NCBI GenBank assembly: GCA_943788725.1
Contig: CALSRJ010000003.1
Coordinates: 620,001-684,000, forward strand
Direction: 5' to 3'
From: an uncultured Flavobacteriales bacterium
Lineage (GTDB): Bacteria; Bacteroidota; Bacteroidia; Flavobacteriales_G; Salibacteraceae
Length of the DNA: 64,000 nucleotides
A model generated the notes under the pieces. The model was given only the letters and a program-made list of their open reading frames with translations, searched no databases and had not been told where the DNA came from. Numbering within the stretch: position 1 is the stretch's first letter; each line of letters begins with the position of its first letter. This document shows positions 45,565-51,180 of this stretch, piece after piece. The translations under genes and the position numbers were made by a program.

Positions 45565-46020
45565 CTATCGCCCCATCTTCTTGAGACGATCCAGCTGTCG
45601 CTTGGTGTCCTTTTCCTTGATGTTATCTCTCTTGTCAAAGAGTTTCTTACCCTGGGCCAGGGATATCTTGAGCTTGGCCAGGCCTTTTTCATTGATGAAA
45701 AGCGCCGTAGGAACAATCGTCAAGCCTTTTTCATTGACTTTTTTACTCCACTTCTTAATCTCGTTTGCGTGCACCAATAGTTTGCGTTGACGCTTCGGTT
45801 CGTGGTTCGCATAAGTGCCATACTTGTACTCGGCAATGTTCATGTTCACCACGTACAGCTCATTCTTGATGAACTGACAAAAGGCCTCGTTGATGCTAGC
45901 TTGTCCTTCGCGGATGCTCTTGATCTCCGTGCCTTGAAGTACGATACCCGCTACCATCTCCTCGAGGAGTTCGAATTCGAATTTCGCTTTGCGGTTCTTT
46001 ATGTAGATATCGTCCTTCAT
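45565..46020 (-). CDS. smpB: SsrA-binding protein SmpB
   Basis: SmpB, 151 residues, binds tmRNA and brings it to stalled ribosomes in trans-translation. Its OB-fold shows in IKNRKAKFEFELLEEMVAGIVLQGTEIKSIREGQ (read in part) and FINEKGLAKLKISLAQGKK; the C-terminal tail KRDNIKEKDTKRQLDR is the part that enters the decoding centre. The tmRNA gene itself was not found in the window. Upstream (46021-46405) are only remnants. Confidence 0.96.
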   Translation of the reverse strand: MKDDIYIKNRKAKFEFELLEEMVAGIVLQGTEIKSIREGQASINEAFCQFIKNELYVVNMNIAEYKYGTYANHEPKRQRKLLVHANEIKKWSKKVNEKGLTIVPTALFINEKGLAKLKISLAQGKKLFDKRDNIKEKDTKRQLDRLKKMGR

Positions 46021-48460: not shown

Positions 48461-48646
48461 CGCTTCGCTCAAAAGCAAAAAACCCCAGCTTACGCTGAGG
48501 TTTTCATGTCACTTCGTGACCCGGCTGGGGCTTCCCGCTTGATGCGGGATAAACTTCTCCCCACATTGCTTTATCGCTTTGCTCAAAAGCAAAAAACCCC
48601 AGCTTACGCTGAGGTTTTCATGTCACTTCGTGACCCGGCTGGGGCT
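48461..48646. repeat. Tandem direct repeat carrying the tRNA-Lys 3' end and its terminator
   Basis: The 72-bp stretch 48461-48532 recurs at 48575-48646, offset 114, with one mismatch. Each copy holds a terminator hairpin (AAAACCCCAGC TTAC GCTGAGGTTTT; 48479-48504 and 48593-48618) and the last 16 bases of the tRNA-Lys gene (minus strand). Only the second copy continues into a whole tRNA. The 42 bases between the copies contain a small CCCGC/GCGGG hairpin. Duplication by slippage or an att-like trace of an integrated element are both possible. Confidence 0.85.
48593..48618 (-). terminator. Terminator of tRNA-Lys
   Basis: On the minus strand AAAACCTCAGC GTAA GCTGGGGTTTT is followed by TT and lies just after the tRNA 3' end. 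A second copy lies 114 bases further on (48479-48504). Confidence 0.8.
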
Positions 48647-48703
48647 CGAACCCAGGACCCATACATTAAAAGTGTATTGCTCTACCAGCTGAGCTACCGA
48701 GTC
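48631..48703 (-). tRNA. tRNA-Lys (anticodon TTT)
   Basis: The minus strand folds into a 73-nt cloverleaf: acceptor GACTCGG/CCGGGTC with one T-G pair and discriminator A; D arm with TAGCTCAGCTGGTAGAGCA; anticodon stem ATACA/TGTAT enclosing CTTTTAA; T arm CTGGG-TTCGAGC-CCCAG. No CCA is encoded. A duplicated terminator follows. Confidence 0.97.
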
Positions 48704-48783
48704 CTCATTTTTGAGGGGTGCAAATATAGCCGCAGATTTTACAGAATCAAATGCTTTTGCAATAAATCGGCGACGGGGGAAAA

Positions 48784-50277
48784 TTACCTTGGATTGTTCC
48801 AGTAGTCTAAGGCCCTGCTACCCACTTCATTCATGTCCATTCCACGCAAGTTTCGGTAGTCTGAGACATCTCCTTGGTTGTTCATGGGTTCATCGTTGCC
48901 AGAAGGCGAAGCAGAAGGGGTGGAGAGTTGTTGATACCAGGAATAATCGACCGTTTCACCGGGGACGTTGGAGTGGAGCATGATGAAGTCATTGGTCACC
49001 AGCGTTCGGTCGTAGAAAACAAACTTGGCGTCAGATTTTTTTGGTGTCTTGTAATAATGCCAGATCTCGTAGGGAGAAGCGTTCGGTTCGCGGTGACGCA
49101 TGACCCTTGTGTCTGGTTTTCCGTAGACCAAGTAAACGCGTCCGCGGTCTGTGCGACAAGCGTGTCTGCGTCGGTTACCTAGATCGAATTCCTTTTCGGC
49201 GTACCTGATTTTTTTGTGGTAGCTGTTCCATTCCGATTCCGGATCAATGGCGTTGCGGTCCCTCCAGAACGAGTAGAAGAAGCGTCGGAGGTCGGTAGTG
49301 TCGCCTTCTTCCCAGTTGTCATCGATGTAGCGCTCTTCTGTGGGGCTTGCTTGATAGCGCATGCAATAGACCATGGTGCGAAGGGTATCTCCCCGCAAAC
49401 GGCCTACGAAGGTCTCGCTGAGCTGAAAATCATTGATCTCCTCAACCGTGGGTACGATGTTATGGCGTTGAATACTGCTGCGCGCCGTTGCGATGACTTC
49501 ATTGTTGCGGTTACGCGCCTCGATCTGTACGAGGTAATTGCCCGTTCCCAATCCGGTGATGTCCCAGGTGTGAAAGACAGCTTGCACTTCGCTTCCTTTC
49601 ACCCTTTTCAGGACGTGGTAGGAGCCTAGTACATGTTCGTCCCGTGCATCGAGGATGTCGAGAATGATGAGGTAGTCGTTGGGGCCGCCTAGGCTGTATT
49701 CTGTATTGTACAGCTCGGTGTAGAGTAAAAGTTTGTTTTGATCTGGACCTTGATAGCCAGAGATGCGTGGGATCATGTCTACGTTTCCTCGGGAGAACTT
49801 ACCCACCTTTCCTCCATTGTCGTATACCGTATCTAAGTACACAATGTCACTGAAGTATGCATTCTCCGTAGGGAGCGGAATGGTAATGGTTTGGGCGAAT
49901 GAAACGCTGTCTGAAGGGTTGTTCAAGTCGATCAATCGAATCGTCACATCGTAGGTCGCTGGTTCTAAGAAGAACCGCTGTAAGTCTAGGAAATCGACAA
50001 TGGCATTCAGCGAGTCATTGGTGTACGGACTCTTGATGATGTTTTTCGAAAAGTCGACCACGCGCCCTTCGTTTTCGAAAATGTACGTCAACTCCACGCG
50101 GGCTTGAAAACCATCGGCCGCTTGGGCATAGCGGAGTGAAGAGGCGTTGAAGAGCATTTGGGTTTCCACGTAGGTGCCCTCATCTGGAGTGAGAAATACA
50201 GCGTGGTTGAAATAGGCATCAAGCGCAGAAGCCGAGAAAGAATAAAAAAAGACCGTTGCGAGCAGCAAATACCTCAT
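48784..50277 (-). CDS. GWxTD-domain protein
   Basis: The 497-residue protein has a signal peptide (MRYLLLATVFFYSFSASA) and the long beta-sandwich layout of the GWxTD family in Bacteroidota, with RRFFYSFWRDRNAID, YHKKIRYAEKEFDLGN and TDRGRVYLVYGKPDTRV. The motif that names the family is changed: ACRTDRG instead of GWxTDRG. The start at 50277 is set by the signal peptide; the frame is open 81 bases upstream. It is probably periplasmic or attached to the envelope and its function is not known. A 20-bp perfect palindrome lies upstream at 50412-50431. Confidence 0.82.
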   Translation of the reverse strand: MRYLLLATVFFYSFSASALDAYFNHAVFLTPDEGTYVETQMLFNASSLRYAQAADGFQARVELTYIFENEGRVVDFSKNIIKSPYTNDSLNAIVDFLDLQRFFLEPATYDVTIRLIDLNNPSDSVSFAQTITIPLPTENAYFSDIVYLDTVYDNGGKVGKFSRGNVDMIPRISGYQGPDQNKLLLYTELYNTEYSLGGPNDYLIILDILDARDEHVLGSYHVLKRVKGSEVQAVFHTWDITGLGTGNYLVQIEARNRNNEVIATARSSIQRHNIVPTVEEINDFQLSETFVGRLRGDTLRTMVYCMRYQASPTEERYIDDNWEEGDTTDLRRFFYSFWRDRNAIDPESEWNSYHKKIRYAEKEFDLGNRRRHACRTDRGRVYLVYGKPDTRVMRHREPNASPYEIWHYYKTPKKSDAKFVFYDRTLVTNDFIMLHSNVPGETVDYSWYQQLSTPSASPSGNDEPMNNQGDVSDYRNLRGMDMNEVGSRALDYWNNPR

Positions 50278-50411: not shown

Positions 50412-50431
50412 TTATGAACAATTGTTCATAA
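50412..50431. promoter_or_regulatory. Perfect 20-bp palindrome, operator candidate
   Basis: TTATGAACAATTGTTCATAA is its own reverse complement. Half-sites TTGTTCA and GTTCAT recur at about 50371 and 50448. It lies between the GWxTD gene (minus strand, start 50277) and the structured RNA (+ strand, from about 50480) and could serve either. Confidence 0.45.
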
Positions 50432-50479
50432 ACGATGCTGAAAACCTGTTCATTTGTTTTGGGCGCAAATTCTTTGCTA

Positions 50480-51034
50480 TCAGGGAGTTATGTTCTACAA
50501 TTGTCATTGTCAACGTGAAAGAAAGACAGCGACTCACCTTCGGGTGACAGGTTCACGGACAAGCGTTCTTTGAAGCGATTCCGAAGGGTTCTCGGACAGC
50601 AAGTTATTCCGTTCGCGGAAAGATTACGGCACTGAGATCTGAAAGTCCACAACTTTAGGGCTCGCAAGAGCATCTGGAGGGTAACGTGGAACAGAAGGGC
50701 GTTGCAAAGTAGGCCGCTTGATGAAAAGAGGGCGGAGGATGGCGTTAAGTCCTAACGCAGGAATACTTCGGTTGAACTGTAATAGTTGCCGGGGACAACC
50801 GTCCCAGGCGAGTGGCTATGCCCCTGCGTAAAGTAGGTGACATCGATCCTAACCGATTTATCGGGATGGAGAGGCAATCGAAGACTTCGGTCTACGATTG
50901 TGGTCAATGAACCAAGTACCGCACTTCGGTGTGGTCAGGAGCTGAATTTTAGACATCTTGGCACTTGTTGCAAATCGAACGAATTGCAACAAAAAATTGA
51001 AAGCGACTTCGCAAGGGGTCGCTTTCTTTTTTTT
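50480..51034 (+). ncRNA. Large structured non-coding RNA, family not recognised
   Basis: No open frame of note covers this stretch, yet it is full of perfect short hairpins on the + strand: UCACC-UUCG-GGUGA (50534), UCCGA/UCGGA (50580), UUCCG-UUCG-CGGAA (50607), a CCAC/GUGG-closed arm with GCUC-GCAA-GAGC tip (50647-50689), GCGUUA/UAACGC (50742), GCC-GGGAC-AACC-GUCCC-GGC (50788), CCGA/UCGG (50853), CAAUCG-AGAC-UUCG-GUCU-CGAUUG (50875), UGGU/ACCA (50901), ACCGCAC-UUCG-GUGUGGU (50918) and GUUGCAA/UUGCAAC (50967). A perfect 9-bp terminator ends it. UUCG and GNRA tips on this strand only, and the U-run, fix the orientation. It does not show RNase P, tmRNA, SRP or group I/II intron core motifs. The 5' end is approximate. 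Confidence 0.75.
50999..51034 (+). terminator. Terminator of the large structured RNA
   Basis: GAAAGCGAC pairs perfectly with GTCGCTTTC around TTCGCAAGGG and eight T follow. No + strand coding sequence lies upstream for more than 500 bases. Confidence 0.92.
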
Positions 51035-51058
51035 AGGGGCTAGGAGCTAGGGGGAATC

Positions 51059-51180
51059 TCAACTGCAACTTCAACATCAACATCAACATCAATGTGCTAA
51101 TGTGCTAACGCACTAATGAGTTAATTCTCTAATTGACTAGTCCCTAATCCCCAGTCCCCAGTCCCCAGCCTCAGTCCCCG
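51059..51180. repeat. Low-complexity intergenic sequence
   Basis: After the structured RNA comes a simple-sequence stretch: CAACTGCAACTTCAAC, four near-copies of CATCAA, GTGCTAATGTGCTAA and three copies of CCCCAGT. Nothing coding. Short relatives of the CAACTGCAACTTCAAC motif occur at about 31373, 46229 and 62610, also between genes. Confidence 0.6.

Follow-up and report, generated by a model that had tools for sequence, protein, structure and literature searches.

The 64,000-nt stretch of DNA analysed here (the window), from the genome of an uncultured Flavobacteriales bacterium (G000), carries a divergent GWxTD-domain gene and a convergent ridA gene, both recognised with Pfam, and between them lies a noncoding locus. 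Positions 50507-51034 of the + strand (about 528 nt) almost certainly constitute a stand-alone structured RNA gene, as judged from a promoter, homologues, covariation, and a terminator. The transcript, predicted from the promoter, a boxA-like sequence, and the terminator, would begin near 50507, where helix P0 begins when the four loci described below are lined up, and would end in the U-run of an intrinsic terminator (50999-51034, 9 bp followed by U8). The initial annotation of this DNA had set the start at 50480, but the -7 element of the promoter occupies 50496-50503; a candidate promoter near 50469 was dropped once boxA had been used to align the four loci. The row of hairpins and the closing 9-bp terminator with eight T residues that it described are both present in the sequence. 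Each homologue likewise ends in a terminator-like hairpin with a U-run, which is weak in G015. The absence of a coding frame is borne out by single-base indels between homologues, which hit the most conserved part of the RNA.

That the RNA stands as its own gene, as the same annotation held, agrees with the convergent orientation of the downstream ridA. The locus combines its own predicted promoter and terminator with covarying helices, as an independently transcribed structured noncoding RNA should. We considered a cis-acting leader or an antisense regulator of a neighbour, as the position between a divergent and a convergent gene might suggest, and regard it as highly improbable. The RNA has its own terminator, and in the window the next 600 bp hold no gene on the same strand; because the terminator is succeeded by the convergent ridA, there is no gene for the RNA to lead. 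Relatives that lack the RNA nevertheless retain both neighbours, and a covarying core would be superfluous for simple antisense.

Three homologues of the RNA were identified. Two from the same genus, G001 and G005, were found by a DNA search of 60 genomes, and one from another genus of the same family, G015, was found with a covariance model that had been built, from the genus only, for the 134-nt core (E 1.7e-10). All four RNAs occupy the same locus between the GWxTD-domain gene and ridA. A further DNA match, in G028, covered the terminator only and was discarded. When a degenerate pattern was scanned against 84,980 species, the three homologues were recovered—the Flavobacteriales MAGs SI074_bin77, SRR6854295_bin.3, and UBA6057—together with a single Rhodospirillales match that spans two transport genes and was put down to chance. 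No further homologues came from scans with the models, which covered overlapping sets of 35 genomes at family, 42 at order, 395 at class, and 395 at phylum level; for the order, class, and phylum sets the filters were strict enough that weak matches can be missed. One class-level match, in G279 (E 0.0086), falls within a protein gene and was also taken as chance. Phage, plasmid, and viral collections contained no match to the RNA.

Within the genus, three genomes (G003, G007, and G011) have the GWxTD gene and ridA about 100 bp apart, without the RNA, and the core model found nothing in a scan of these genomes. In the GWxTD-protein tree the three group together as a single clade (support 100/99) within the RNA-bearing lineage, with support of 97/97 at the fork that joins them with G000 and G005. 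The simplest account is that the RNA was anciently present and has been lost at least once; because the empty sites are nested in the RNA-bearing lineage, the RNA appears to be old but dispensable, with an accessory function. Such patchy presence, and a tRNA-Lys gene 1.8 kb away, could also be expected of mobile-element or prophage cargo, as the GOLLD and ROOL RNAs often are. The RNA, however, keeps one locus in two genera, the tree fits old presence and loss, and the phage, plasmid, and viral sets are without a match, so that we consider mobile cargo extremely unlikely.

The most conserved part of the RNA is a core at 50685-50822 (mean column identity 86% in the genus alignment), from which our models R1 and R2 were derived. 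The compensatory changes on which the structural proposal had been staked are there: 12 of the 29 core pairs are changed on both sides, against a shuffled mean of 5.0, and none of 500 shuffles scored as high, while slid controls gave 0-3 pairs. The covariation score of the core was 0.506 as compared with 0.269. In the core alignment, which was fitted to the model and leans towards the structure, 94% of the cells are paired. Three hairpins lie in the core. The first, P2 (50714-50735), reads CCGCUU/GGGCGG in the genus and has its whole stem exchanged in G015, to CUCAUCCG/CGGAUGGG; the second, P4 (50757-50780), bears a UUCG loop and has seven of its eight pairs changed on both sides; and the third, P5 (50786-50811), has 3 of 10 pairs changed on both sides, with 95% of cells paired.

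Between P2 and P4 runs a near-invariant strand, AGGAWGGCG-(U)NAAGUCCUA (50736-50754), in which the four copies differ at two positions, an A/U site and a variable base, and by a single nucleotide inserted in the window copy. This strand is a candidate binding or active site. Were it the active site of a ribozyme that cleaves or joins RNA, the size of the molecule, its multi-helix core, and its near-invariant stretches would be in keeping; but nothing specific indicates catalysis, no ribozyme family in Rfam matches, and protein binding would explain the conserved strands equally well, and we think a ribozyme quite unlikely.

Outside the core, stems were picked by eye, without shuffle control, and with the structure resting on four sequences the pair-by-pair statistics there are weak. 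Nevertheless, P0, P2d, the apical stem over UCUG/CAGA, and P6 stay paired with other letters. The 5' domain (50507-50562) consists of the closing helix P0, UUGUC-AA-CGUGAA with UUCACG-GACAA, and a UUCG hairpin, P0b (50534-50547). Equivalents of P0 with different letters occur in G005 and G015, so that this helix is verified in three of the four copies, G001 needing a shifted version, and P0b is present in all four. At 50580-50596 follows a hairpin with stem UCCGA/UCGGA and a conserved AAGGG loop, of which G005 has a similar stem and loop; the AAGGG does not vary in the genus alignment and occurs also in G015. A helix around the UUCG hairpin at 50607-50620 (50597-50634) reads CAG/CUG, UAG/CUA, CAGU/ACUG, and CUGC/GCAG across the four copies. 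The next helix (50638-50695) has an invariant UCUG/CAGA base that carries a hairpin varying in both length and sequence, with apical stems UCCAC/GUGGA, UCUGUC/GGCAGA, AUCGG/CCGAU, and CUCCGG/CCGGAG; in G001 the apical pairing overlaps with the basal one.

Directly after the core, hairpin P6 (50823-50837) takes the forms CCUGC/GUAGG, CCACGC/GCGUGG, CGCUGC/GCAGCG, and ACCAGA/UUUGGU. A long-range pairing between CGCAGG at 50756 and CCTGCG at 50823, raised earlier as a possibility, has to be given up: it is not kept in the homologues, and CCTGC pairs locally with GTAGG in this covarying hairpin instead. The variable 3' domain contains one UUCG hairpin in the predicted fold (50874-50901) and another, of 7 bp, from the UUCG-hairpin count (50918-50935). 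The predicted fold places one more hairpin directly before the terminator (50965-50992), and by inspection G005 has a similar stem.

The initial annotation had counted five UUCG loops. Four of them on the + strand do close hairpins of at least 3 bp, whereas the fifth (50766-50769) has two perfect base pairs and falls short, yet it sits within a covarying hairpin. The asymmetry between strands was correctly noted, with four such hairpins on + and none on -. A count of four was reached by none of 5000 mononucleotide shuffles, and no other stretch with equally many UUCG hairpins was found when the window was scanned. Folding energy gave z-scores of -5.1 on + and -2.4 on -. With the terminator removed these became -2.2 and -0.9 for the window copy, and the homologues without their terminators gave -2.1, -3.7, and -4.7 on +. 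Because the terminator supplies much of the z-score, energy alone is moderate evidence, and it is conservation and covariation, rather than folding energy, that decide the case for a structured RNA. Constraining the fold to the conserved helices gives an energy of -177.6 as compared with -194.9 for the free minimum; this cost of about 17 kcal/mol means that the single-sequence minimum is not everywhere the conserved fold.

Comparison with known RNA families upheld the earlier description of the RNA as one of unrecognised family, as cmscan with Rfam 15 at the gathering threshold matched nothing in the window other than tRNA. With E up to 10, the window RNA and its three homologues gave weak matches only, most of which fell at the terminator end and no one of which was common to all four; OLE, ROOL, GOLLD, and the raiA motif, each of which we take to be represented by an Rfam model, had no match in these scans. 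The exclusion of RNase P and tmRNA in the initial annotation stands, since both are separate genes in the genome, each on a contig other than that of the RNA gene: RNase P RNA (RF00010) at G000:C1:5425-5799 (183 bits) and tmRNA (RF00023) at G000:C1:1002110-1002504 (149 bits). In the region of the RNA itself the RNase P model gave no match with E up to 10, and ARAGORN detected no tmRNA. The tmRNA had been considered because an smpB-like gene lies 5 kb away, at 45565-46020 on the - strand, and was rejected once the real gene was located. For SRP RNA and introns the exclusion holds as well, and comes from the Rfam scans alone.

Two short motifs of the RNA are like those of type A RNase P RNA, GUAGGCYGCUUGA and AGGAAAGUCC, and GUAGGCCGCUUGAUGAA resembles an RNase P motif. 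The motifs occur in the wrong order and the RNase P-like letters, GUAGGCCGCUUGAUGAA included, are lost in G015, the most distant homologue. When each of the four RNAs was aligned locally with RNase P, tmRNA, and 16S, the alignments were matched in score by at least 7 of 200 shuffles every time, and revealed no likeness common to all homologues. These motifs and an OLE-like size might otherwise have spoken for a far-diverged RNase P, tmRNA, OLE, raiA/ModT, GOLLD, or ROOL that escapes the models; with the RNase P and tmRNA genes located elsewhere and both the Rfam scans and the shuffle-controlled alignments negative, we find this very unlikely. The RNA thus falls, by sequence and structure, in none of the families tested.

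As a kind, large structured noncoding RNAs are already familiar from OLE, raiA/ModT, GOLLD, and ROOL (PMC9723947, PMC11706538, PMC12286853). The window RNA recalls OLE, which is a stand-alone noncoding RNA of about 600 nt with an intricate fold and highly conserved stretches (PMC9723947, PMC10898510), but OLE belongs mainly to Bacillota and to a membrane ribonucleoprotein, and the window RNA matches neither its sequence nor its structure. RNAs of the raiA motif/ModT are structured, stand-alone, trans-acting, and tolerant of deletion (PMC11706538), a description that the window RNA may share as far as action in trans is concerned; they differ in belonging to Bacillota and Actinomycetota, where their abundance rivals that of rRNA, and the window RNA has no match to them in Rfam. 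GOLLD and ROOL are likewise large noncoding RNAs of ornate build without an assigned role, and form RNA-only nanocages (PMC12286853), whereas the window RNA is without a match to them and has a fixed chromosomal locus and vertical descent.

The control elements upstream of and within the RNA gene hold conserved spacing. The -7 element TACAATTG (50496-50503, +) is of the Bacteroidota sigma-ABfr type, TAnnTTTG, and is equally placed in the four loci (TACAATTG, TATTATTG, TAACATTG, and TATGTTTG). Nineteen bp upstream of it lies a -33 element, TTTG (50473-50476, +), which is TTTG in G005, CTTG in G015, and a weak CATT in G001. Both elements conform to the published Bacteroidota consensus of TAnnTTTG (-7) and TTTG (-33) (PMC7366714). 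Farther upstream, a perfect 20-bp palindrome, TTATGAACAATTGTTCATAA (50412-50431), has its centre about 86 bp ahead of the predicted start and is a candidate site for a regulator, presumably an activator. Its core, AACAATTGT, is found in all four RNA loci and the full 20 bp are perfect in the window and G015, with distances from its centre to the -7 element of 74.5, 74.5, 74.5, and 73.5 bp. The palindrome is the sole near-perfect copy in the genome, where 0.03 would be expected per window with up to three mismatches, and it is absent from the empty sites of the relatives that lack the RNA. The only other palindrome-like site (G000:C1:342352-342371, three mismatches) may be a further target for this regulator.

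About 58 nt into the predicted transcript lies GUUCUUUGAA (50565-50574, +), which is identical in the four RNAs and begins 68-69 nt downstream of where the -7 element starts. The clade's own 16S leaders contain GUUCUUUGAA 84-97 nt upstream of the gene in all seven family genomes with a readable leader (with one mismatch in G005), and the same promoter type precedes it in six of the seven, so that the leaders share both promoter type and boxA with the RNA gene. The RNA thus bears, near its 5' end, the boxA of the clade's rRNA leaders. Owing to its presence in those leaders we read GUUCUUUGAA as most likely a boxA. The surroundings of the RNase P and tmRNA genes have neither this boxA nor the promoter layout of the RNA loci. 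In Gammaproteobacteria, NusB and S10 bind boxA, and the boxA complex antiterminates rRNA and CRISPR arrays, shielding long untranslated transcripts from Rho (PMC12691694). By likeness, boxA would serve the same function in Bacteroidota. The window RNA resembles boxA-controlled rRNA leaders and CRISPR arrays (PMC12691694) in that its predicted transcript is long and untranslated and has a boxA close to the 5' end, but is neither rRNA nor a repeat array.

A regulated-looking promoter and a boxA in every copy could also fit a sponge that titrates a protein partner upon induction, or a decoy for NusB-S10 through boxA. Structured RNAs such as CsrB and 6S can work as protein sponges. To act as a sponge, an RNA has to offer many equivalent binding sites or else one long mimic, and this RNA has one boxA and a single complex core; the boxA is moreover placed early in the transcript, where the RNA's own antitermination would be served. 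We therefore judge a sponge or decoy unlikely.

The reading that best accounts for the whole, to which we give a probability of roughly 0.6, is an unlisted large structured noncoding RNA, activator-controlled and antiterminated, that acts in trans in a ribonucleoprotein. Binding of a regulator to the palindrome, at about -86, would probably turn on the standard Bacteroidota promoter. RNA polymerase would then transcribe the folded 5' domain and next the rRNA-leader-like boxA, which may let it get past Rho as far as the intrinsic terminator. The product would be an RNA of ornate fold, and the conserved core, which contains the strand AGGAWGGCG-AAGUCCUA, most likely works in trans within a ribonucleoprotein, a step that we hold at about even odds when taken by itself; the role of the RNA is probably accessory and dispensable. 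A bolder version, in which the RNA belongs to a new category of large RNA machine (a ribozyme or a ribonucleoprotein core) of one Flavobacteriales clade, with rRNA-type antitermination and a dedicated activator, is possible but doubtful.

The large structured RNAs known from bacteria are few, and several of them are still without a biochemical function; the present RNA represents an unlisted family from Bacteroidota and suggests that boxA antitermination in that phylum also serves noncoding RNA genes other than rRNA. It offers two practical handles, a conserved core for further searches and natural empty sites in close relatives for comparison.

Some minor features surround the locus. In G005 a small gene for a DUF6435 protein (Pfam match for this copy) stands between the RNA and ridA, and G015 has a similar gene by sequence (L011:1602-1769, L028:4635-4802); none was seen at this position in the window or G001. 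After the terminator and before ridA, the window has short imperfect repeats (caacatcaacatcaacatcaa, ccccagtccccagtccccag) at 51041-51180. An ORF at 48506-48805, antisense to the tRNA-Lys gene and encoding the peptide DPAGARTQDPYIKSVLLYQLSYR, is likely spurious.
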